From contig JAGQIK010000431.1 in assembly GCA_020431405.1 (NCBI GenBank), forward strand, positions 1 to 36,346: a stretch of 36,346 bases of DNA. Reading direction: 5' to 3'. The notes below the pieces were generated by a model. The model saw nothing but the letters and a program-made list of their open reading frames with translations, was not told where the DNA came from and did no database searches. The DNA is from Myxococcales bacterium (GTDB lineage Bacteria; Myxococcota_A; Polyangia; GCA-2747355). Every line of letters begins with the position of its first letter. Positions within the stretch are counted from its first letter, which is position 1. The position numbers were made by a program, and so were the translations under genes. Below, piece by piece: positions 8,133 through 27,303 of this stretch.

Positions 8133-10427
<2,295 letters not shown>

Positions 10428-12039: not shown

Positions 12040-14249
12040 GGCGAGGAGGCGCTCTGGGCCGCGGGCTCGCTGGCCGGCCGCGCTCGCCGCTCTTCGAGCG
12101 GCTGCACGTCGACCTCGATGCCGTTGAGAAACGCCATGCCGGAGAGCGGCTCGATCACGGAGCGGTCGACGAGCTCGTTGTAGTTGGGCGTGGGCTCGGC
12201 GCTCGCCACGCGATTGCGTGCCTCAGTGTGGCCCCAGCCGTGCGGCAGGCAGACCACGCCGGGCATCACCTCGTCGGTGAGCCGCAGCTCGCACGTCACC
12301 GCGCCCGCCGCACCGACCACTCGCACACGCTGCCCGTCGGCGAGGCCGCGCGCCTCGGCGTCGCGCGGGTTGATGCGCAAGCGATGGCAGCGGCGCCGCA
12401 TCAGCGTGGGCGCGTTGTGCATCCAGGTGTTGTGCGAGCGCGGATCGCGGCGCCCGATGAGGCGCAGCGTCTTCGGCGACGAGACCTCGCCGCCTTCGCT
12501 GACGATACGCGTCAGCTGCTCGAGCCCTACCAGCAGCTCCTCGGGCACGAGATTCACGCGCCGGTCCTCGGTGCGCAGCCGTTCGCCGATCACGCCGGTG
12601 CGCGCCGGGCGCGCGTGCAGCCCGTGCGGCTCGGCTTTGATGCGCGCGAGGTTGAGGCCGTCGCGCCACGGCAGCAGCTTGTCGCCTTGTGGTCCGAGGC
12701 GGATCAGCAGATCGACGAGCAGCTCCGGCGTCAGCTCGCGGCCCACCGCGCGCAGCGCGCCTTCGGCGAAGCCGAGCAGTCGGCTGCCCAGCGGCGGCAG
12801 ACCCATCGCGCGCGTGAGGTCGGTGAAGATGCGCCACTCCTGGCGCGCTTCGCCCACCGGCGCGATCACCGGCTCGGTCCACTGCACGTAGGGCGAGGCC
12901 ATCAGCCCGAGGTGCGTCAGCGGCAGGTCTTCGCGCTCGAGAAACGTCGTGGCCGGCAGGAAGTAGTCGGCGTGCGTCGACGTCTCGTTGAAGTAGATGT
13001 CGATGCTGACGAGGCACTCGAGCTGGCGCAGCGCGCGCTGCATCGACGCGCTGTCGGCGATGGAGAGCGCGGGATTGCCTGCCGAGACCACCAGCGCGCG
13101 GATTTGGCCCTCGCCAGGCGTCAGGATCTCGTCGGCGAGCACGCCCGACGGCAGCTCGCCGAGCACCTCGGGGTAGTTGCCGATGCGGCTGCGGTGGCGC
13201 GCGTAGCGATCGAGGCCCGCCACGCGTGCGAGCTGCACTACGTCGACGGGGCTCTCGGCAAATACGGCGCCGCCGGGCTGGTCGAGCTTGCCGGCGAGCA
13301 CGTTGCAGACCTCGAGCGCCCAGCAGGCGTGCGTACCCCAGGTGCCGCAGGCGACGCGCCCGTAGGCGCAGCCGCTCGCCGCGCACGACAGCTCGCGCGC
13401 CAGCTGGCGGATCGTCTCGGCGTCGATGCCGGAGAGCGCCGCCGCGCGCTCGGGCGTAAACGGCTGGACCAGCCGCCGCAGCTTGTCGACGCCGCGCGCG
13501 TGCTTGCGCAGAAAGACGCGCGCCTCGAGCTCCTCTTCGAGCATCGTGCGCGCCATGGCGAGCAGCACGAAGACGTCCGAGTCGGGCCGAATGAAGTGGT
13601 GCTGATCGGCGATCTGCGCCGTCTCGGTGAAGCGTGGATCGACCACCACGAGCTTGCCGCCGCGCTTGCGAAGCTCGCGCAGGCGCGCGCGCACGTCGTG
13701 GATGTTGACGATCGTGCCGTGCGAGACCACCGGGTTGACGCCCCACAGCGACATGTAGCGCGCGCGCTCGACGTCCGGGATCGGCTGCAGGAAATGCGAG
13801 CCGTAGAGCAGATAGGACGCGAGGAAGTCGGCGGAGTTGTCCTGCGTGCCGGCGCCGAAGGCGTTGCGCGTGCCCACCGCCTCGCGAAAGGCGTGCGCCC
13901 ACAGTCGGTGGCTGTAGGAAAAGACGCTCGGGTTGCCGTAGTAGACGCCCACCGAGTGCGGACCGTGGGCGTCGCGGATGCCGCGCAGGCGCGCGCCGAT
14001 CTCCCGTACGGCCTCGTCATAGCCGATCGGCGAAAACGTGCCGTCGGCGTTGCGCTTCATGGGCCGTGTGACGCGATCGGGATCGTGCGTCACCTCGTTG
14101 AAGACCACGCCCGTCGGGCATGCGTGTCCGCCAGACAGCAGATGCTGCTCGTCGGGGCGCAGCTTGCTGACGCGGCCGTCCTCGACGGTGGCCACCATGC
14201 CGCAATAGGCCTCGCAGATGCGGCAGAACGTGACGTGTTGTCGTGTCAT
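12036..14249 (-). CDS. Molybdopterin-dependent oxidoreductase, [4Fe-4S], second copy
   Basis: Protein of 737 residues. Cys9, 12, 16 and 44 (Cx2Cx3Cx27C) form the [4Fe-4S] motif of the DMSO reductase superfamily. Domain features follow: SVGVYYGNPSVFSYSH, YMSLWGVNPVVSHG, VVVDPRFTETAQIADQHHFIRPDSD, VSAGNPALSIADSASM and TSTHADYFLPATT. The C-terminal cofactor-binding barrel includes NPRDAEARGLADGQRVRV and LPHGWGH. No export signal is seen. The protein is only distantly similar to the one at 8133-10427, so this is a different enzyme, not a recent duplicate. Its stop overlaps the GTG of the peptidase. No Shine-Dalgarno precedes ATG 14249; TAAGAT seven bases upstream could be a -10 of a leaderless transcript. 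Confidence 0.93.
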   Translation of the reverse strand: MTRQHVTFCRICEAYCGMVATVEDGRVSKLRPDEQHLLSGGHACPTGVVFNEVTHDPDRVTRPMKRNADGTFSPIGYDEAVREIGARLRGIRDAHGPHSVGVYYGNPSVFSYSHRLWAHAFREAVGTRNAFGAGTQDNSADFLASYLLYGSHFLQPIPDVERARYMSLWGVNPVVSHGTIVNIHDVRARLRELRKRGGKLVVVDPRFTETAQIADQHHFIRPDSDVFVLLAMARTMLEEELEARVFLRKHARGVDKLRRLVQPFTPERAAALSGIDAETIRQLARELSCAASGCAYGRVACGTWGTHACWALEVCNVLAGKLDQPGGAVFAESPVDVVQLARVAGLDRYARHRSRIGNYPEVLGELPSGVLADEILTPGEGQIRALVVSAGNPALSIADSASMQRALRQLECLVSIDIYFNETSTHADYFLPATTFLEREDLPLTHLGLMASPYVQWTEPVIAPVGEARQEWRIFTDLTRAMGLPPLGSRLLGFAEGALRAVGRELTPELLVDLLIRLGPQGDKLLPWRDGLNLARIKAEPHGLHARPARTGVIGERLRTEDRRVNLVPEELLVGLEQLTRIVSEGGEVSSPKTLRLIGRRDPRSHNTWMHNAPTLMRRRCHRLRINPRDAEARGLADGQRVRVVGAAGAVTCELRLTDEVMPGVVCLPHGWGHTEARNRVASAEPTPNYNELVDRSVIEPLSGMAFLNGIEVDVQPLEERRARPASEPAAQSASSP

Positions 14250-14276
14250 CGGAGTAATCTTAGCATCAGCATCAAC

Positions 14277-14282
14277 GGAGGA
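14277..14282 (+). promoter_or_regulatory. Ribosome binding site deciding a GTG start
   Basis: GGAGGA at 14277-14282 places the start of the first zinc-ribbon gene at GTG 14287, five bases after GGAGG. The ATG at 14311 and the longer upstream frame lack such a site. Only 37 bp separate the two divergent starts here, so the promoters must be compact or lie partly inside the genes. Confidence 0.7.
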
Positions 14283-14286
14283 CGCC

Positions 14287-15591
14287 GTGCCACCAACCGT
14301 CTTCAGCTACATGGTCAAGACCACCGAGTGCGCCAACTGCGGCGCGCCGGTGACCGGCAAGATCGGTACCTCCGTGCGCTGCGAGTACTGCTCGACGGTC
14401 AACGCGCTGCGCGAGCGCCGGCAGGACACGGCCGTGGCGGCGAGCAACCTCAGCGAGCCCGCGCGCATCGCGCAGCTGCGCGCGCAGGTGATCTCGCCCG
14501 ATGATCCGGCGCTGCCACAGCCGCCGATGGGCTACGAGCAAGTGGTCATGGGCGCGATCACCGATCCCGCGCAGCGCCAGAGCGCGCTCGCCACGCTGCG
14601 CCAGGAGTGGCAGCGCGTGCGCCAGCAGGCGACGCAGTACGGGCTCACGCCGGACATCGAGCGCCGCGTCTATCGGCTGGCGCTGATCATGGGCGACTGG
14701 TACCGGCTCGACAACGAGCACGCCCGTGCGCGCGCCGTGCTCGAGACCGCGCTCGACACGCTCACCGATCCCACGCAGCGCGACGTCGTGCGTAACCAGC
14801 TGGCGCGCGCCGCGCTCGCCGCCGGCGACGTAGAGGGCTACGCCGGCTGGATCGGCGACGTCAACGCGCAGCCGGTGCACCTGGTGGCCGACAGCGAGTA
14901 TCGCTGCAGCGTCGCCAAGCACGCCGCCTCGGAGAGCCGCTGGTACGACGTGCTGGCGGTGCTCGGTCGCACCAGCCTCGAGATCCCTATCTCACCGCAC
15001 CTGCTGCTGCTGGCCTACTGCCTGCGCTCGCACGCGCTGGCCGGCACCGGCGATCAGGAGGCGGCCAAAGGCCAGATCGCCGAGGCGGTTGCGCGCCCCG
15101 ACGTCTCGTCCGAGGTGATGCGCGTCTGCTGGACGTCGACGCCCGGCCCGGCGACGCCGCTGGCGCACGCCATGGCGGGGCAGGCCGGCCAGGCCACCGG
15201 CAACCGCGGCATGGTGATCCAGATCGGCGGCCTCGGCGGGCTGATCCTCAAGAGCATGGGCCACTCGGCGCAAGTGCAGCTTGGCGGCGCGCGCCCGCGC
15301 GTGCGCTCGAGCTCGACGCCTCAGCAGGCCAACGCGAGCAAGGTGATCCTGATCGTGGTGATCTCGATCGTGCTGACGACGATGATCGGCATCGGCGTAG
15401 CGGTCTTCACCTTCACGTCGACACTCAGCGACGGCATCAGCAAGAAGGCTGACGAGGTGCAGAAGCAGATCGGCGACAGGCTCAAAGGCCTCAAGGGGCT
15501 CTTGCCGCCGGCCGGCGACAGCAAGAAAAAGAAAAAGGAACCGCCCAGCCGTTCGAGTGACGACGATCCCTCGGTGACGCCCTCGATGTAG
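14287..15591 (+). CDS. Zinc-ribbon protein with helical repeats and one membrane segment
   Basis: Protein of 434 residues. An N-terminal zinc ribbon has Cys15, Cys18, Cys32 and Cys35 (CANC and CEYC). The middle, roughly residues 90-270, is helical with TPR-like features (DWYRLDNEHARARAVLETAL). A single transmembrane segment lies at about residues 353-376, followed by a Lys-rich tail (KKKKK) and an acidic end. The topology suggests a cytoplasmic zinc ribbon tethered to the inner membrane. The function is unknown. It is followed 42 bp later by another zinc-ribbon membrane protein; the two look like parts of one system. It is divergent from the molybdoenzyme at 12036-14249, with no evidence of a functional link. 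Confidence 0.85.
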   Translation: MPPTVFSYMVKTTECANCGAPVTGKIGTSVRCEYCSTVNALRERRQDTAVAASNLSEPARIAQLRAQVISPDDPALPQPPMGYEQVVMGAITDPAQRQSALATLRQEWQRVRQQATQYGLTPDIERRVYRLALIMGDWYRLDNEHARARAVLETALDTLTDPTQRDVVRNQLARAALAAGDVEGYAGWIGDVNAQPVHLVADSEYRCSVAKHAASESRWYDVLAVLGRTSLEIPISPHLLLLAYCLRSHALAGTGDQEAAKGQIAEAVARPDVSSEVMRVCWTSTPGPATPLAHAMAGQAGQATGNRGMVIQIGGLGGLILKSMGHSAQVQLGGARPRVRSSSTPQQANASKVILIVVISIVLTTMIGIGVAVFTFTSTLSDGISKKADEVQKQIGDRLKGLKGLLPPAGDSKKKKKEPPSRSSDDDPSVTPSM

Positions 15592-15633
15592 GGCCGACAA
15601 AGACCCGAACGCCTATGCGCGCTAGCCTCCGAT

Positions 15634-16965
15634 ATGGCTGATGCACGCTGCGCGCAGTGCGGAGGAAACGTCGCCGTTCGTCTGACGGGCCCGCCGCTGA
15701 GCTGCAGCTACTGTGGCAGTGACAAGCCGCTCGCGCCCGACGTCGCCGCGCGCGTCGAGACGCTGCGCGTCGACCTGGAGCGGCACAAGGGCCGGTCGCA
15801 GCAGCTTCTCGGTAAGCAAGTCTTCGCGGGCGTGGTCTCGAGCTCGTGGGTGCTGACGCTGCTGGTGATCCTATGGGGCGGCGTGATCACCGGCGCCGCC
15901 ACCTGCGAGCCGCTGCCCAAGGGACACACGACGTTCGCGACGCTCAGCGGGCCTCGACTGCGCGCGACCGATCCCACGTCGCGAGCGCTCGTCACTAAGT
16001 GGTGGCTGCTCTATCTCCCGCTCACCGGCTTCACCTTCAACCTGGCGCTATGGAGCGTGATGCGCCTGCGTGGACGCCGCGTGATCAGGGCGGCGCTTCC
16101 GCGCGCGCCGCGTGCTGCAGGCGCGCCGCTTCGCTGTCGCTGCTGCGCCGCCGACCTGCCCGAAGGTGGCGCGATCCGGCGCTGCGCGTTTTGTGATGCC
16201 GACCATGTCGTGCTGGGGAGCCGCTATCAGAAGGAACAAACGAGCCTCGCGCGGGAGCTCGATGCGCTGCAATCGCAGGTGGGCCGCACGCTCGCGGATC
16301 GCGATCGGACCGCGACCCGGGTGGCGGCGATCGGCACGTGGTCGCCGCTGATCGCGCTGCTCGCGATGCCCGCGGCGTTGTTCGTGCCTCGGACCTACCC
16401 GGTGCTATGGGCGCTGCCCGCCTCGTTCGTCGCGCTGACGATCCTGATGCTAGTCCTGACGGCCGCCGGCCCGTCACTGCCGCGCATCCGCTCGCTCGGT
16501 GCGCTCGGGGTCGGAGATCAGATCATTGTCGACACGCGGCGCTTTGTCGCCGTCGCCGCCGTCGAGGTGTGGCCGACGCTGACGTTTCCCGTCGTCCAGC
16601 GGCTGGTCGTGCTGCGCGATGCGCGAGATGACACCGCCGCACCGTCACACGCGGTGATCGTCGACTTCGACGCGGAGCGCGACATCCACAGCGCGCGGCT
16701 CTTCGAGATCAGCGCGGCGGGCACAGCCCTCAGCGCTCGCGACACGCAGGGCGAAAACGCGCTCAGACGCTACGCTGTCGAGCGCGCACCCGACGAGGGC
16801 TGGGCCGACTACCAAGCGTTGTGGATCGTTCCAACGATCGCGGCGAACGCCTTCAATGGCTTGCGCTGCTGGGCCGAAGCGCCGCAGGTCGGCGCCACGC
16901 CCGCGCATACTCTCACGCTCGCCGGCGTTGTCGCCGAGGAGAAGCTGACGCTGATCGGGGCGTGA
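15634..16965 (+). CDS. Double zinc-ribbon membrane protein
   Basis: Protein of 443 residues with two CxxC-CxxC zinc ribbons. The first has Cys6, 9, 24 and 27. The second, after two membrane segments, has Cys168, 171, 184 and 187. Transmembrane segments lie at about residues 65-88, 123-143, 235-250 and 257-278. The C-terminal 160 residues are soluble beta-rich sequence with no recognised motif. It probably works with the preceding zinc-ribbon gene. A role in sensing or assembly at the membrane is a guess. It ends nine bases before the convergent topoisomerase gene. There is no good Shine-Dalgarno; ATG 15634 is chosen because the first CxxC follows at once. Confidence 0.83.
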   Translation: MADARCAQCGGNVAVRLTGPPLSCSYCGSDKPLAPDVAARVETLRVDLERHKGRSQQLLGKQVFAGVVSSSWVLTLLVILWGGVITGAATCEPLPKGHTTFATLSGPRLRATDPTSRALVTKWWLLYLPLTGFTFNLALWSVMRLRGRRVIRAALPRAPRAAGAPLRCRCCAADLPEGGAIRRCAFCDADHVVLGSRYQKEQTSLARELDALQSQVGRTLADRDRTATRVAAIGTWSPLIALLAMPAALFVPRTYPVLWALPASFVALTILMLVLTAAGPSLPRIRSLGALGVGDQIIVDTRRFVAVAAVEVWPTLTFPVVQRLVVLRDARDDTAAPSHAVIVDFDAERDIHSARLFEISAAGTALSARDTQGENALRRYAVERAPDEGWADYQALWIVPTIAANAFNGLRCWAEAPQVGATPAHTLTLAGVVAEEKLTLIGA

Positions 16966-19953: not shown

Positions 19954-21288
19954 CTACATCGAGGCCTGCTTGGGATTGATGGCGAGCGCCTGCGCGCGGA
20001 GCGTGGTGCCGCGCTTCGACGACGGTCCGTAGACCTTCGAGGCCACCCAAAAGAGCTCGGCGTTCTTCGCCGGCATGGCGAGCGCCTTGTCGATGGCGGC
20101 CTTGGCGCCGGCCTTGTCACCGGCGGCGAGCTGCGCTTCGGCGAGCATCACCAGCGCCGCGCTGCTGGGGCGCAGCTTGGCGTTGGCCGCCGCGAGCGTG
20201 ACCGCGCGCTTGGGGTCATTTCCGACGCCGAGATAGAAGTGCACCGCGTGGCCGTAGGCGGCCTCGGGGAAGCGCGCCAGCCACGCGGCGAAGCCCTTGG
20301 CGGCGATCGCCTCGTGGCGCGCGGCCGCCTTAGCGTCACCCTTCTTGCGATAGACCTCGGCGATGGCCGCCTGATACTCGGGGTTCTTCGAGCGCCCGAG
20401 CACGCCTTGGTAGATCGCGATGGCGCGATCGAGGTGGCCGAGGCGCATCTCGATCTCGCCCAGGTGCTCGGCGGCGAGCACCGAGTACGGCGATAGCGCG
20501 ACGGCCTCCTTGAAGTCGGCCTTGGCCTCGGCGAAGCGGCCGCGATGCATCAGCGAGATGCCGCGCATGACGCGGATCCAGGCGCGGCCCGACGGGTTGC
20601 GCTCGATCACGCGCAGCGCCTCGCTGAAACCCGCCGCCGCCTTGTCGTGTGCGCCGAGGGTGTCGTCGAGCACCGCGAGCAGCGACGCGGCGGCCGCCTT
20701 GCCGCGGCGCAGCTTGGCGAGCTTTTCGAGCAGCGCGCGCGCCTCGGCGTACTTGCCCACCTGCAGCGCGATCTCGGCGTGCAGCGGGAGCAGTGAGGAG
20801 GGCCGCTTCTTGGCCGCTTCGGCCACCTTCAGCGCTTCGCGCGCCGCCGGCAGCCGATGCAGCGCGAGCAACGAGCGCGCCTTGATCAACGCCACGCTGC
20901 CCGCGCGCGCGCCGTGACGCACCGCCGCCTCGCACAGCTCGATCGCCTTCTGATGGGGCCACAGCTCGGCGTTGTGGTGGCTCAGCGCTTGGTACAGCCC
21001 CGCCAGCGGGGCGTAGTAGATGTGCTGCTTGGGCGCCTTGGCGAGGCGCTCCGAGTAGAACTTGATCTGGCGCTGCAGATACTCGGGCGCCGTCATGTCC
21101 TTGGTCTGACGGATGCGCGTGTAGCCGGTGATGCGCTTGATCGTGCTCCCGCTCGCCGCCGAGCCCGCCGCTGCGGTGCTGCGCGACGCGCTGCCAGATG
21201 CGCTGCCGGATGTGCTGCCGCCGCGCTCGGTACAGCCGGACGCGGCGAGCAGCAGCAGCAATAGGTAGGGGAGGGCGTGCCGGGGCAC
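19954..21288 (-). CDS. TPR-repeat lipoprotein
   Basis: Protein of 444 residues. The signal peptide ends in LLAASGC with Cys19 as the lipidation site, followed by a Ser/Gly/Ala linker to about residue 48. The rest is tetratricopeptide-like helical pairs, e.g. YLQRQIKFYSERLAKAPKQH, ARALLEKLAKLRRGKA, LSPYSVLAAEHLGEIEMRLG and LDRAIAIYQGVLGRSKNPEY. TPR solenoids act as protein-binding scaffolds, here probably in the periplasm or outer membrane. The start is GTG 21288, four bases after the stop of the DUF4331 C-terminal-half gene, so it belongs to that operon. Partnership with the exported DUF4331 pieces is inferred from this spacing. Confidence 0.88.
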   Translation of the reverse strand: MPRHALPYLLLLLLAASGCTERGGSTSGSASGSASRSTAAAGSAASGSTIKRITGYTRIRQTKDMTAPEYLQRQIKFYSERLAKAPKQHIYYAPLAGLYQALSHHNAELWPHQKAIELCEAAVRHGARAGSVALIKARSLLALHRLPAAREALKVAEAAKKRPSSLLPLHAEIALQVGKYAEARALLEKLAKLRRGKAAAASLLAVLDDTLGAHDKAAAGFSEALRVIERNPSGRAWIRVMRGISLMHRGRFAEAKADFKEAVALSPYSVLAAEHLGEIEMRLGHLDRAIAIYQGVLGRSKNPEYQAAIAEVYRKKGDAKAAARHEAIAAKGFAAWLARFPEAAYGHAVHFYLGVGNDPKRAVTLAAANAKLRPSSAALVMLAEAQLAAGDKAGAKAAIDKALAMPAKNAELFWVASKVYGPSSKRGTTLRAQALAINPKQASM

Positions 21289-21292
21289 GTGC

Positions 21293-21961
21293 TTAGTGGG
21301 CGTCGGCCAGGTAGGGGAACGTCGACTTGAAGGCGACGTCGTTGGCGTCGACCTTGTCAGTGGTGATCGCTTTGCTGGTCAGCGCCGCCAGTGACGTGTT
21401 GACCACGTCCTCGTCGAGGCCGCGCCCGCCGAAGGCGCCGCTGATGCCAACCTCGACGCCGAGGTAGCCAGTGGTCGTGCCGGCCGTGTCGACCTTGAGC
21501 ACGTCGCCGCCGGCGACGAGCACCGCCTTGAGCGTGGCCGCCGTCAGGTCGACGCCGTTGACCTGCAGCGGCGAGGTGCCGAGGCCTGTCAGCGTGTCGA
21601 TCAGCGCGTTCATGCCATCGGCCACGGCGCCGCTTTTCAGCGCGTCGGGGCTGCTCTCGTTGAAGGTGTCCTTGGCCGTCTCGGCGGCGCCGAACAGCAG
21701 CACGCTGGAGATGCCAGGGCGGCCAGCGCGGTCGATCTGCGTGCCCGCGATGTTGGCGTCGACGTCGATGGGCGTGACAGCCATGTCGGTGCCCGCCTCG
21801 GTGGGCGCCGCTTCGCTGCCAGCTTCCTTGGGCGGCGCTGTCTCGGCGCCGGCTTCGGTGGGTTTCTTGGTGTCGGGTTTGGTGCCGCTATCGTCCGAGC
21901 AGGCGCCGAGCGCCAGCACGAGTCCGAGGCCACACGCGAAAAGCAGGGTCTTGTTGAGCAT
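21293..21961 (-). CDS. Lipoprotein with the C-terminal half of a DUF4331 domain
   Basis: Protein of 222 residues. The signal peptide ends in LALGACSDD with Cys21 as the lipidated residue, followed by a Thr/Ala/Glu/Pro-rich linker to about residue 65. Then comes AGTQIDRAGRPGISSVLL, with KDTFNESSPD and a closing FPYLADAH. These match the second half of DUF4331 proteins (pattern xQVDRxGRPxINTVLI, KDxFNxxxPxxD, FPYLxxPH). The first half is encoded just upstream at 21976-22590, so a normally single domain seems to be divided between two exported proteins. GGGAGGA upstream of ATG 21961 is a good Shine-Dalgarno. DUF4331 has no established biochemical function. Confidence 0.8.
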   Translation of the reverse strand: MLNKTLLFACGLGLVLALGACSDDSGTKPDTKKPTEAGAETAPPKEAGSEAAPTEAGTDMAVTPIDVDANIAGTQIDRAGRPGISSVLLFGAAETAKDTFNESSPDALKSGAVADGMNALIDTLTGLGTSPLQVNGVDLTAATLKAVLVAGGDVLKVDTAGTTTGYLGVEVGISGAFGGRGLDEDVVNTSLAALTSKAITTDKVDANDVAFKSTFPYLADAH

Positions 21962-21975
21962 GGGTCGGTCCTCCC

Positions 21976-22590
21976 TTATCGCGTGGTCGTGGCCCAGAGG
22001 CCGAGCTTGGTCTGCGAGGCGCCGCCTTGCAGCATCGCCTTGGGCATCTCGAGCACGATCGCCGAGACGTTGGTGCCCGCGAGCGGGTCTGCGCCGGTGA
22101 ACTTGTCGGTGGCCGAGCTGAGCGTGTCAGCGAGGCCGGTGAGGTCGATGAAGAACGGGTCGTCGGCGACGCCGGCCCAGAACTTCACGTTGCCCTCGGT
22201 GAGGACCTTGCCGATGTCGCCCTGGATGTCGACGTTGGGACCCTTGACGCGGATCTGCGTGCCCTTGGTGCGCACGCTGAACTTGTGGTCGCTCTTCTGA
22301 TCGTCGTCGGTGTCGACGTGGAAGTCGTAGCGGGTGGCGTCGTCGAAGCCTTGGTCCATGCCCGCAGGCGTGAGCGCCGCGACCGTCATCACCAGCACGA
22401 CGTTGCCGTTATCGGCGGGGCTAAGGAACGCGTAAAAGTCCGCGATGTCGGCCTTGACGTTCGCGGGCAGCTTGACCTTCGCGCTATCCGTGTGGTCGGC
22501 AGCTTCGATGGCGGGGGCTCTGACGAGCAGCAACCCCAAGGCCACGAGCGCACCGCCAACGGCCAGATACCGGGCGATCCTCATGAGCAT
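21976..22590 (-). CDS. Exported protein with the N-terminal half of a DUF4331 domain
   Basis: Protein of 204 residues with a Sec-type signal peptide ending near residue 30 (PAIEAADH). It continues with HTDSAKV, KADIADFYAFLSPADNGNVVLVMTV, FHVDTDDD, KFWAGVADDPFFIDLTGL and VSAIVLEMPKAML, ending at LGLWATTTR. This is the beginning and middle of the DUF4331 pattern (DIADxYAFxSP, FAGxRDDPFFxDL, NVSAIVLExP, LGVWATT) and stops where a normal member would continue with its second half. That half follows after 14 bases as a separate lipoprotein. AAGGA before ATG 22590 is a good Shine-Dalgarno. Unlike its partner it has no lipobox, so it is probably a soluble periplasmic or secreted protein. Confidence 0.85.
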   Translation of the reverse strand: MLMRIARYLAVGGALVALGLLLVRAPAIEAADHTDSAKVKLPANVKADIADFYAFLSPADNGNVVLVMTVAALTPAGMDQGFDDATRYDFHVDTDDDQKSDHKFSVRTKGTQIRVKGPNVDIQGDIGKVLTEGNVKFWAGVADDPFFIDLTGLADTLSSATDKFTGADPLAGTNVSAIVLEMPKAMLQGGASQTKLGLWATTTR

Positions 22591-22760: not shown

Positions 22761-24602
22761 TTACTGAACTTTGGGCTCGCAGATTCCTGATTCGCAGAAC
22801 TCGCCGGTGGGGCAGTCCTCGTTCTTGACGCAGGGCTTCTTGACCACCGTCTCGGTCCACTGCGCGATGTGGTTGCCGGTGTTGATGTCCTGCACGGGCA
22901 GCCAGAATCCCGGATAGCTCGGATCGGTATTGAGGTCGTCTTTGTAGGGCTCGATGGCTGCCATCCAGATCTGCGCGCGGCCGTCGCCGCTGAGGCGCAG
23001 GCCGTAGTCGCGGCGGCTGCTGAAGGTGACCCACATCAGGCGCCGGCCTTTGTACTTCTGCACGAAGGGGCTGAACTTGGGCCACGAGTTGCCGAGATCG
23101 CCCTGGCCGTTGGCGTTGGCGAGGAACACCGGCGCGCTGTTGGGCTGCGCCTTGACCAGCCACAGCTGGGCGTCGGGCGCGTCGTAGGAGCTGCCCGCGG
23201 CGCGGTTGAAGATCACGAACTGATTGTCGGGCGAGAAGGTCGGGTAGTAGTTGTTCTTGCCGCTGCTCTTGACCAGCGTCGCCGGGGCGGACCAGCTGCC
23301 GTTGGTCGCGTCATTGCGGATCAGCATCAGCGAGCCCTGCGAGACGCCCGGGTTGCCGACGGGGATCGGGATCGCCTGCTCGTCGAAGGCGTAGACCACG
23401 GTCTGTCCGTCGGCGGACCAGTCGGGCATCGTGCCGTTGGCGACGAGCGGCTCCTTGCCGATCACCGCCAGCGTCGTCGAGTCGCGCAGCACCAAGCTGT
23501 TGCCGTCCGACGTGATGATCTGGCTGGCGTCTGGGTTGAACGACATGAAGTTGGCGGCGCCGGCGGAGATCTCGGTGCGCGAGGCGACGTCGATGACCTT
23601 CAGCGGCGCCGGCGCGGGGATGTCGAGGCCGACGGCCATGCGCTTGCCGTCGCGCGAGAGCGCGTGACAGCCGACGCAGAACAGCGCCTTGGCCTGCGGC
23701 GCGGAGTAGAACAGCGTGGGCTTCTGCTTCGGCTTGCCGAAATCGTAGCGGATGATGCTGCCGGCGGCGTTCCAGTAGAACAGCCCACCCTGCACGTCCT
23801 CCTCGGCGACGAGCAGCTTGCGCGATGTCGAGGTGCCGACGCGCGTGCCGCCTTGGTCGGTGCCGCGCACGGTCACGTCGACGGCCTCGGCGCCGCGCAG
23901 CGAGCCGACGATGGTCGACCACAGGTTCTCGCTCGGCGTCAAGCCGCAGCCCACGCCGACCGTCTCGCACTGCGTGTAGATGCGGATGTCGGTGCCTGCG
24001 TTCTTGAGCGACAGCTCGAAGAAGACGAAGCCGGCGCCCGGCTTCCACTGAAACTCGAGCTCGAGCAGGTTGGGCGGGATCAGCACGCCATCGGCCGGAT
24101 AGACCAGCTCGTTGGACGTGCTCGGATCGTCGGGGCCTTCGAAGCGCTTGGCGACGTCGGCGGGCGCCGTGCCGGTGACGAAGACGCGCTTGTAGATAAC
24201 GGTCACCGAGGTGGTGGCGCGCACGCCCGTGGCGCTGTCGACCTCGACCTCGGTCTTGCCGCCGCGCTTGGTGCCCGAGACGAACTCGGCGCTCTTGAAC
24301 ACGCCGATGCTCGGGTCGAGCACGCCGAAGGTCACCGCCGTCGTGATCTCGCGCTCGCTGCCGTCGCGGAACTTGCCGAACGCCTTGTAGGCCTGCTTGA
24401 CGGGGTTTTCGTCCTTGAGCTCGAGCACCGCGTCGGCAGGCTCGATGCGGATCGACTCCAGCCCGTCGAGGTTGGGCGGCACCCCTTGGGTGTCACCGCC
24501 GCCGTCGTTGTCGACGAAGTTGCTCGTGTCGGCGCAGCCCAGCACGGGCACCAGCGCCGCCAGCGCGAAAACCATCGCGAGGCGATAAGTACCGCGAAAC
24601 AT
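22761..24602 (-). CDS. Lipoprotein with CxxCH motif and beta-propeller repeats
   Basis: Protein of 613 residues. The signal peptide ends at Cys23 (LVPVLGC). Residues 45-140 look like a bacterial Ig-like domain (LESIRIEPADAVLELKD). A single CVGCH at residues 309-313 is a c-type haem-binding motif. It is followed by TolB/PD40-like blades: DGKRMAVGLDIP, NPDASQIITSDG, MPDWSADGQTVVYAF, YPTFSPDNQFVIFN and WPKFSPF. The C-terminus carries a CVKNEDCPTGEFCESGICEP Cys module typical of myxobacterial surface proteins. It would be a periplasmic or surface protein, possibly haem-bearing. ATG 24602 has only a weak GGGGG upstream. Confidence 0.85.
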   Translation of the reverse strand: MFRGTYRLAMVFALAALVPVLGCADTSNFVDNDGGGDTQGVPPNLDGLESIRIEPADAVLELKDENPVKQAYKAFGKFRDGSEREITTAVTFGVLDPSIGVFKSAEFVSGTKRGGKTEVEVDSATGVRATTSVTVIYKRVFVTGTAPADVAKRFEGPDDPSTSNELVYPADGVLIPPNLLELEFQWKPGAGFVFFELSLKNAGTDIRIYTQCETVGVGCGLTPSENLWSTIVGSLRGAEAVDVTVRGTDQGGTRVGTSTSRKLLVAEEDVQGGLFYWNAAGSIIRYDFGKPKQKPTLFYSAPQAKALFCVGCHALSRDGKRMAVGLDIPAPAPLKVIDVASRTEISAGAANFMSFNPDASQIITSDGNSLVLRDSTTLAVIGKEPLVANGTMPDWSADGQTVVYAFDEQAIPIPVGNPGVSQGSLMLIRNDATNGSWSAPATLVKSSGKNNYYPTFSPDNQFVIFNRAAGSSYDAPDAQLWLVKAQPNSAPVFLANANGQGDLGNSWPKFSPFVQKYKGRRLMWVTFSSRRDYGLRLSGDGRAQIWMAAIEPYKDDLNTDPSYPGFWLPVQDINTGNHIAQWTETVVKKPCVKNEDCPTGEFCESGICEPKVQ

Positions 24603-26031: not shown

Positions 26032-27303
26032 ATGAAAACCGTTCGCCATCTCGTGATCGCGCTCAGCGCGCTGCTCGCATTCTCTGGCTGCAAGAAGGCC
26101 GGCAAAGGTGCAAGCGGAACCGCCGGCGGCAGCGGCGGCGGCGCCGTCAGCGGCACCGCCAAGAGCAAGGCCGGCACGGGCGGCGCCACGACCAGCGGCA
26201 GCGGCGGCGCGACGACCAACAGCGCAGCCAAGGGCCCCGACGACAACTCCGATGTGGCGAGCCAGCTCAAGGGGCCCACCGATCCCGCGCGTATGCCCAA
26301 GGCGCCCGACACGCCGCCGGCCGAGGTCGCCGCGCGCGTGATCGTCGTCAAGTACATCACCGCCAACGATCCGGGCGACGCCAAGCGCAACAAGGACGCC
26401 GCGTCCAAGCGCGCCGCGTTGCTGGCCAAGCTCGCGCGCCAGAAAGACTCGGACTTCGTCGCGCTCGCCAAGAAGTACTCCGACGCCGGCGAGGCGCCCG
26501 ACCGCGTCTACAAGATCGGCCCCGACAGCAAGCTGCCCTTCGCCAAGGTCGCGATGGCGCTCGGCGAGGGCCAGGTCTCGCACCCGCTCGGCACGCGCTA
26601 CGGCTACTACATCGTGATGCGCGACAAGCCGCAGGAGGTCTCCACGGCGCACATCCAGCTCGTCTACAAGGGCGCGGAGCTGGCGCCGGTGGCGTTCAAA
26701 CGCAGCAAGGAAGACGCCAAGAAGCTCGCCCAGAAGGTGCTCGCCAAGGCGCTCAAGGGCGGCAACTTCTCGGTGCTCGCCGCGACCTACTCGGACAGCC
26801 CGTCGAAGATGCGCGGCGGCGTGATCCGTCCGCTCTCCGAGGAGCGTCTCAAGAAGTACGCCAAGGGCTTCGATGCCTACTACAAGGCGGCGCTCGCCAC
26901 CGAGGTCGGCCAGGTGCACGACAAGGTCGTCGAGACCCCCTACGGCTTTCACATCATCAAGCGGCTGCCGCTCAAGAAGATCCTCGCGCAGCACATCCTG
27001 ATCGTGTTCAAGGGCTCGGCCGCCGCCGCCGCGCAGACCACCACGCGGCGTAAGGAAGAGGCGCGCGTGCTGGCGGGCAAGGTACGCCTCAAGGTGCTGC
27101 GCAAGAAGAAGTCGTTCGAGGAGCTGGCGCGCAAGTACTCCGAGGACGCCGGCTCGGCGCAGAAGGGCGGGATGCTGCCGCCGTTCGCGCGTGGCGAGAT
27201 GGTGCCCAAGTTCGAGCAGTTCGCCTTCGCGCTCAAGCCCGGCGCCGTCTCGGACGTCGTGGAGTCGCGCATGGGCTTTCACATCATCAAGCGCGTGCGT
27301 TGA
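26032..27303 (+). CDS. Lipoprotein with three parvulin (PpiC) peptidyl-prolyl isomerase-like domains
   Basis: Protein of 423 residues. The signal peptide ends in LLAFSGC with Cys20 lipidated, followed by a Gly/Ser/Thr/Ala linker to about residue 65. Three PpiC-like modules follow. Module 1 (about 100-200) has DFVALAKKYSDAG and YGYYIVMRD. Module 2 (about 205-320) starts STAHIQLVYKG and ends TPYGFHIIKR. Module 3 (about 325-420) starts AQHILIVFKG, contains FEELARKYSED and ends MGFHIIKRVR. Modules 2 and 3 retain the family HIL/GFHIIKR framework; module 1 is the most diverged and probably inactive. The likely role is folding or quality control of envelope proteins. GAGGGA precedes ATG 26032. Its stop overlaps the TTG of the next gene. 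Confidence 0.9.
   Translation: MKTVRHLVIALSALLAFSGCKKAGKGASGTAGGSGGGAVSGTAKSKAGTGGATTSGSGGATTNSAAKGPDDNSDVASQLKGPTDPARMPKAPDTPPAEVAARVIVVKYITANDPGDAKRNKDAASKRAALLAKLARQKDSDFVALAKKYSDAGEAPDRVYKIGPDSKLPFAKVAMALGEGQVSHPLGTRYGYYIVMRDKPQEVSTAHIQLVYKGAELAPVAFKRSKEDAKKLAQKVLAKALKGGNFSVLAATYSDSPSKMRGGVIRPLSEERLKKYAKGFDAYYKAALATEVGQVHDKVVETPYGFHIIKRLPLKKILAQHILIVFKGSAAAAAQTTTRRKEEARVLAGKVRLKVLRKKKSFEELARKYSEDAGSAQKGGMLPPFARGEMVPKFEQFAFALKPGAVSDVVESRMGFHIIKRVR

Follow-up and report, generated by a model that had tools for sequence, protein, structure and literature searches.

The window analysed here, a stretch of 36,346 nucleotides from a Myxococcales bacterium (contig JAGQIK010000431.1), carries on its minus strand two adjacent genes, A and B, that encode the two halves of a DUF4331 domain (PF14224) and are followed by a gene for a TPR lipoprotein. 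The features of this cluster are:

21976-22590, minus strand: gene A, DUF4331 N half; 204 aa; PF14224 at 86.1 bits and a match to the N-half HMM; predicted to be soluble and periplasmic
22501-22590, minus strand: predicted signal peptide of A; 30 aa, ending in IEA, without a lipobox; from the (-3,-1) rule
22492-22500, minus strand: predicted mature start of A, A-D-H, an X-X-His and hence possible ATCUN motif; conserved His column
21962-21975, minus strand: gap of 14 nt between A and B, containing the GGGAGGA ribosome-binding site of B
21293-21961, minus strand: gene B, DUF4331 C half; 222 aa; PF14224 at 42.4 bits and a match to the C-half HMM; predicted lipoprotein
21899-21910, minus strand: lipobox LGAC of B, residues 18-21 with Cys21; by pattern only
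21755-21898, minus strand: low-complexity linker of B, about 48 residues; from sequence
21296-21754, minus strand: C-half domain of B, approximately from GTQIDRAGRP to FPYLADAH; from alignments
19954-21288, minus strand: TPR lipoprotein gene, the partner of the DUF4331 family; 444 aa; Pfam TPR

Both A and B scored above the gathering score of PF14224 (27 bits). A matched the profile at an E-value of 3.9e-24 in two stretches, the best of which covers positions 159-236 of 421, and B matched positions 252-420 at 7.1e-11; laid out on the genome, the profile segments are 11-81 and 159-237 in A and 252-420 in B. These complementary extents (11-237 versus 252-420) bear out the initial annotation, in which A was read as the N half and B as the C half and an alignment to full-length DUF4331 was proposed: neither half alone reaches across the domain (1-421), and only the pair spans it. 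The profile stretch from about 82 to 158 likewise goes unmatched in most of the N halves listed for other pairs, and A therefore looks like a compact core and not like a damaged copy. The invariant residues of PF14224 are present in the window's rows, namely the Asp of 'D.D.Y' and Gly160 in the N half and GR and the Pro of FPY in the C half, and the invariant columns are common to split and single-chain rows. The idea that A and B are repeats of each other was rejected, the hhalign probability of N versus C being 5.4, and a search of both proteins against NCBIfam profiles returned nothing useful.

The two genes lie in different reading frames, and each has its own ribosome-binding site, as had been annotated: AAAGGA precedes the ATG of A, and GGGAGGA is found seven bases ahead of the ATG of B. 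The spacing of 14 bp and the lipobox and linker of B were likewise described correctly, and so was the position of the TPR gene, which begins with GTG four bases past the stop of B. No Shine-Dalgarno sequence was seen ahead of this GTG, and the TPR gene may therefore be translationally coupled. Elsewhere in the same genome (G000:C305, locus L067), furthermore, there is a full-length paralogue of DUF4331 encoded by a single gene.

DUF4331 was present in 22 of 59 relatives and in 114 of the 377 genomes of the window's phylum. From these matches we chose 97 loci (the window, L041-L076 and L100-L159), to which 15 loci of other phyla were added; they contain 61 split modules, 48 single-chain modules, three N-only and six C-only modules, counts that are not frequencies because the loci were picked for their DUF4331 matches. 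The search for the same split in relatives, suggested in the initial annotation, thus yielded 61 adjacent N|C pairs. Apart from one Croceicoccus plasmid, their sources are 53 genomes of the window's phylum, which belong to 20 family codes. The N-only and C-only modules sit at contig ends, except for L066, in which a C half with a divergent lipobox was identified by eye (this locus is outside the 61 pairs), and for three extra C-half ORFs in L127. A scan of contigs with B as the query hit only single-chain relatives from actinomycetes.

In terms of sorting signals, nearly all of the split pairs have the same topology, with an N half bearing an ordinary signal peptide and a lipoprotein C half. 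A lipobox-like pattern occurs in only one of the 61 N halves (L064), where it lies within the signal peptide. Among the 61 C halves, a lipobox was recognised in 55 under a strict pattern and in 59 once the pattern was relaxed. The intergenic gap has a median of 11 nt, with 57 of 60 measurable gaps between -4 and 36, and the relative frames of the two genes are divided 35, 14 and 12, so that there is no conserved recoding site. Of the 58 split loci that offer at least 1.6 kb of space, 46 have a TPR gene of one family immediately downstream of the pair and the other 12 have none there; a lipobox was found in 54 of 81 TPR proteins by a crude pattern count.

An unrooted tree was built from the concatenated N and C columns of 107 modules, L125 and L061 having been dropped for too few columns. 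The split and single labels change three times on this tree, compared with a mean of 35.3 in shuffles, and 57 of the 59 split rows cluster together, along with three single-chain rows (L049, L117 and L168). The other two split rows, L041 and L063, stand apart on a long branch, and from this position the split may have had two origins; a single clade for all split rows was not rejected (p-AU 0.0785). A more careful tree retained 98 of the 107 rows after nine were removed by hand, namely the long L161, L165 and L157, the near-copies L037, L039, L040, L062 and L128, and the permuted L160. In this 98-row tree, the three single chains are nested among split rows with supports of 100/95, 100/96 and 100/99, and support for the entire main split group is just 79/72. 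The nested genes are:

L049:5712-7244; L117:5111-6346; L168:3896-5068: nested single-chain DUF4331 genes, probable re-fusions

No internal signal peptide was found in any of the three, and they are best read as re-fusions, a direction that is beyond the proof of an unrooted tree; read in this way, they would imply a functional link between the halves. The L049 protein also has extra hydrophobic stretches at its C-terminus. Distances between N halves and those between C halves correlated at 0.86 in split pairs and at 0.89 in single chains, with none of 1000 permutations as high in either set, which is what joint inheritance of the units predicts. Because the tree is unrooted, the choice between fission and fusion rests on phyletic spread: single-chain DUF4331 is known in Actinomycetota, Cyanobacteriota, Pseudomonadota and the window's phylum, and split pairs were seen in one phylum and on one plasmid, the pair of which falls among those of that phylum in the tree.

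The single chain of L067 was modelled by AlphaFold (111 rows) with a mean pLDDT of 90.4 and a pTM of 0.92. A aligns to its residues 1-249 and the C-half rows resume at the strand 261-273, and the gene boundary therefore falls between the neighbouring strands 240-255 and 261-273, which in this model are taken for a hairpin. As a surrogate for a split pair, the natural in-frame pair L100 was modelled as one chain, with Gln in place of the stop codon and an alignment of 81 split rows only. AlphaFold folded this chain into a compact unit (pLDDT 90.8, pTM 0.89), in which confidence is low mainly near the second signal peptide and the linker. When the L100 model was compared by VIA-align, all of the 50 listed rows started at residues 4-16 and ended at 312-332, from which an Ig-like sandwich would span the N half (1-178) and continue in the C half. 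VIA-align gave Ig-like arrangements only, all of them weak (Z of 6.6 or less), and they point to a common arrangement, not to kinship. Foldseek against the PDB gave nothing at an E-value of 0.001 or better, and the search by sequence found no solved relative (best E 0.18). The one-chain surrogate, a prediction that carries no inter-chain score, supports the docking of the halves. Reassembly with B as the anchor, as envisaged in the initial annotation, accordingly draws its backing from structure prediction and from the single chains nested in the split clade.

The C half has been rearranged even further on plasmid pCME4A9I of Croceicoccus marinus (L160:4576-5322), where it is circularly permuted in the order of second part, linker and first part. 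Residues 72-157 of this protein correspond to 134-219 of its closest non-permuted relative, L124, at 71% identity, and residues 156-248 correspond to 31-123 of the same protein at 54%; the identical permuted protein occurs in the records of two strains (L160 and L169). Judging from these alignments, the fold of the C half can evidently withstand being cut anew, as would suit a unit whose cohesion depends on packing and not on chain order. The Croceicoccus pair (WP_157668277.1 / WP_232469106.1) resembles that of the window in having the same split and a TPR gene next to it, with HupE/UreJ coming after the TPR gene in Croceicoccus, but differs in the permuted C half. Both proteins are labelled 'DUF4331 family protein' in RefSeq, the split being unremarked in the annotation. 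In L127 (G379:C4), tandem extra copies of the C half were observed after the TPR gene (8365-9114, 9179-9820 and 9579-9923), the first of which is a complete lipoprotein and the last of which, in two frames, looks broken. Tandem duplication of this kind could be a route to permutation.

Cleavage of A at IEA|ADH, as predicted by the (-3,-1) rule only, would leave X-X-His at the free N-terminus. A free N-terminal X-X-His constitutes the ATCUN motif, which binds Cu(II) and Ni(II). His was found in 102 of the 104 filled rows of the A-D-H column and at this site in 106 of 112 aligned N domains. Placing this His at mature position 3 satisfies the (-3,-1) rule for 101 of the 112 rows, whereas the figures for positions 1, 2 and 4-8 range from 2 to 41. 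In L119, the pair nearest to that of the window, the N-terminal His is missing, and the residue in L056 is Arg. Four forms have no obvious signal peptide (L162, L163, L166 and L168): L163 and L166 are annotated to start with M-S-H-H, L168 reads M-S-D-H without annotation, and the annotated start of L162 lies upstream. An initiator Met is typically removed ahead of Ser.

Genes of nickel-permease families were found around DUF4331, namely HupE_UreJ_2 at several loci of the window's phylum and in Croceicoccus, HupE_UreJ, accompanied by DUF4198, on a plasmid of Pseudomonas, and NicO, scoring above the cut-off, in Streptomyces and Nostoc, where it comes after genes of the TPR family; NicO matches at two Nonomuraea loci were below the cut-off. 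A permease was present in only 3 of the 61 split loci, and none adjoins the split cluster of the window, where the gene after that for the TPR protein encodes topoisomerase I. The paralogue with a single chain (L067), elsewhere in this genome, has both TPR and HupE_UreJ_2 genes nearby. Most of the HupE/UreJ-type genes (L067, L051, L137, L160 and others) begin with His right after a signal-like stretch, as published anglerases do; this His1 pattern was seen in 20 of 21 HupE-like ORFs, among them the doubtful L142, a cut ORF whose match is confined to the membrane domain. According to a recent paper (PMC12537917), HupE/UreJ-2 and DUF4198 proteins have N-terminal-His metal sites.

In comparison with known systems, single-chain DUF4331 (PF14224, including L067) shares with the window's pair the two-part domain, the invariant residues, a nearby TPR gene and the X-X-His start, but is made from one gene as one chain without a lipobox, and a HupE/UreJ permease and a gene for a beta-propeller are frequent in its clusters. 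In chaperone-usher pilins, an Ig-like sandwich is completed in the periplasm by a strand of another chain (donor-strand complementation); the pilin strand comes from a transient chaperone and then from the next subunit, whereas in DUF4331 it would come from a dedicated, co-encoded half. Subunit IIa of B-type cytochrome oxidases (PMC3128077) is similarly a small separate subunit that supplies a piece absent from a homologous longer subunit, but this piece is a transmembrane helix and not, as in DUF4331, part of a beta-sandwich of two separately exported and differently sorted proteins. Anglerase-HupE/UreJ-2 and DUF4198 proteins, whose genes occur beside DUF4331, are comparable to it as exported beta-sandwiches with an N-terminus exposed by signal peptidase, which is where they bind metal according to PMC12537917. 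That paper places their His at position 1, whereas DUF4331 has it at position 3 with a putative metal role, and defines anglerases by His1 and a fused HupE/UreJ-2 membrane domain; A fits neither, having His3 and no membrane domain, and DUF4331 was unfused to permease in the loci read.

We consider an old gene fission with non-covalent reassembly of A and B to be the best explanation of these observations, with a probability of roughly two in three. An old fission would have cut one DUF4331 unit between two neighbouring beta-strands, giving rise to the chains A and B. Each chain would then be exported alone, A being cut by signal peptidase I to a soluble form with the mature start A-D-H and B being lipidated so as to tether the unit via its linker. 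In the periplasm, the unit is predicted to reassemble without a covalent bond, the first strand of B pairing with the last strand of A and another strand of B completing the beta-sandwich of A. Together with the co-encoded TPR lipoprotein, this unit would most likely capture Ni(II)/Cu(II) by its free X-X-His terminus.

Alternatively, the halves might be two independent proteins that have separate jobs and make no common fold, the N protein being soluble and the C protein a lipoprotein. Their separate export with different sorting signals and the extra C halves of L127, which have no N halves, would suit such independence, but the halves are always adjacent and co-inherited, the invariant residues of both are common to single chains, single chains are nested in the split clade, and the joint model of the one-chain surrogate is confident; we thus regard independence as unlikely. 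Quite unlikely in our view is an ancestral two-gene state, from which single-chain DUF4331 would have arisen by fusion with nothing having been split in the window's lineage. The three single chains within the split clade show that fusion occurs, and the tree is unrooted, but the occurrence of single chains in four phyla, against split pairs in one phylum and on one plasmid, speaks for the opposite direction. As for a recent frameshift, a sequencing error, or a programmed frameshift or read-through giving a fused protein, the mere 14 bp between A and B is what would be expected, yet the two-gene layout is conserved in 61 pairs that use all three relative frames, and the extra signal peptide, lipobox and linker of B are absent from single chains. 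We consequently rejected this explanation as extremely improbable, in agreement with the initial preference for gene fission over a simple frameshift.

Even when old fission with reassembly is accepted, the role of the unit is a separate matter. There is close to an even chance that X-X-His is structural only and that the unit serves otherwise, for example as an envelope scaffold for the TPR lipoprotein: TPR genes are its commonest neighbours, most split pairs have no adjoining permease, and the sequence search offered no relative with a solved structure. A structural His accords less well with the preference of the predicted cleavage for His3 over seven other positions, with the M-S-H-H starts of the two leaderless forms and with the nickel-permease families that adjoin DUF4331 in several phyla. 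Capture of Ni(II) or Cu(II) via X-X-His is hence suggested only tentatively, as a role with somewhat less than an even chance. More doubtful is the broader proposal of a widespread secreted two-chain class for metal capture, in which fission within a beta-sandwich would have given the halves different fates: on a soluble chain the X-X-His Ni/Cu site would be freed by signal peptidase I, and a lipidated chain would complete the fold by donating strands, the working site being assembled only at the membrane surface; in this proposal, natural re-fusion and circular permutation would show how freely the DUF4331 fold tolerates cutting.

Our literature search found no paper naming DUF4331 or PF14224 and no described function; a control search for DUF4198 returned 10 papers. 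What the analysis adds to the initial annotation is the age and clade-wide extent of the split, the presence of a full-length paralogue in the same genome, and a wider cluster that points to metal handling; the X-X-His mature start, the nickel-permease neighbours and the circular permutation in Croceicoccus are new here. Split, single, re-fused and permuted DUF4331 form a natural series for examining the tolerance of a beta-sandwich to cutting, and the same series bears on the reasons that a cell may have for giving two halves different sorting signals. With its X-X-His start and nickel-permease neighbours, DUF4331 furthermore becomes a testable candidate for metal uptake.

Several other genes in the window may also be mentioned. 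Upstream of the pair, the minus-strand gene at 22761-24602 encodes a protein of 613 aa with PD40 propeller repeats, a CxxCH motif and a Cys-rich end, and its match to TIGR04201 is weak and below the cut-off. On the plus strand, two adjacent ORFs of about 460 aa each at 14209-16965 have no Pfam match at 0.001, and the gene at 26032-27303 encodes an exported-looking protein with PPIC-type rotamase domains in three matched stretches.
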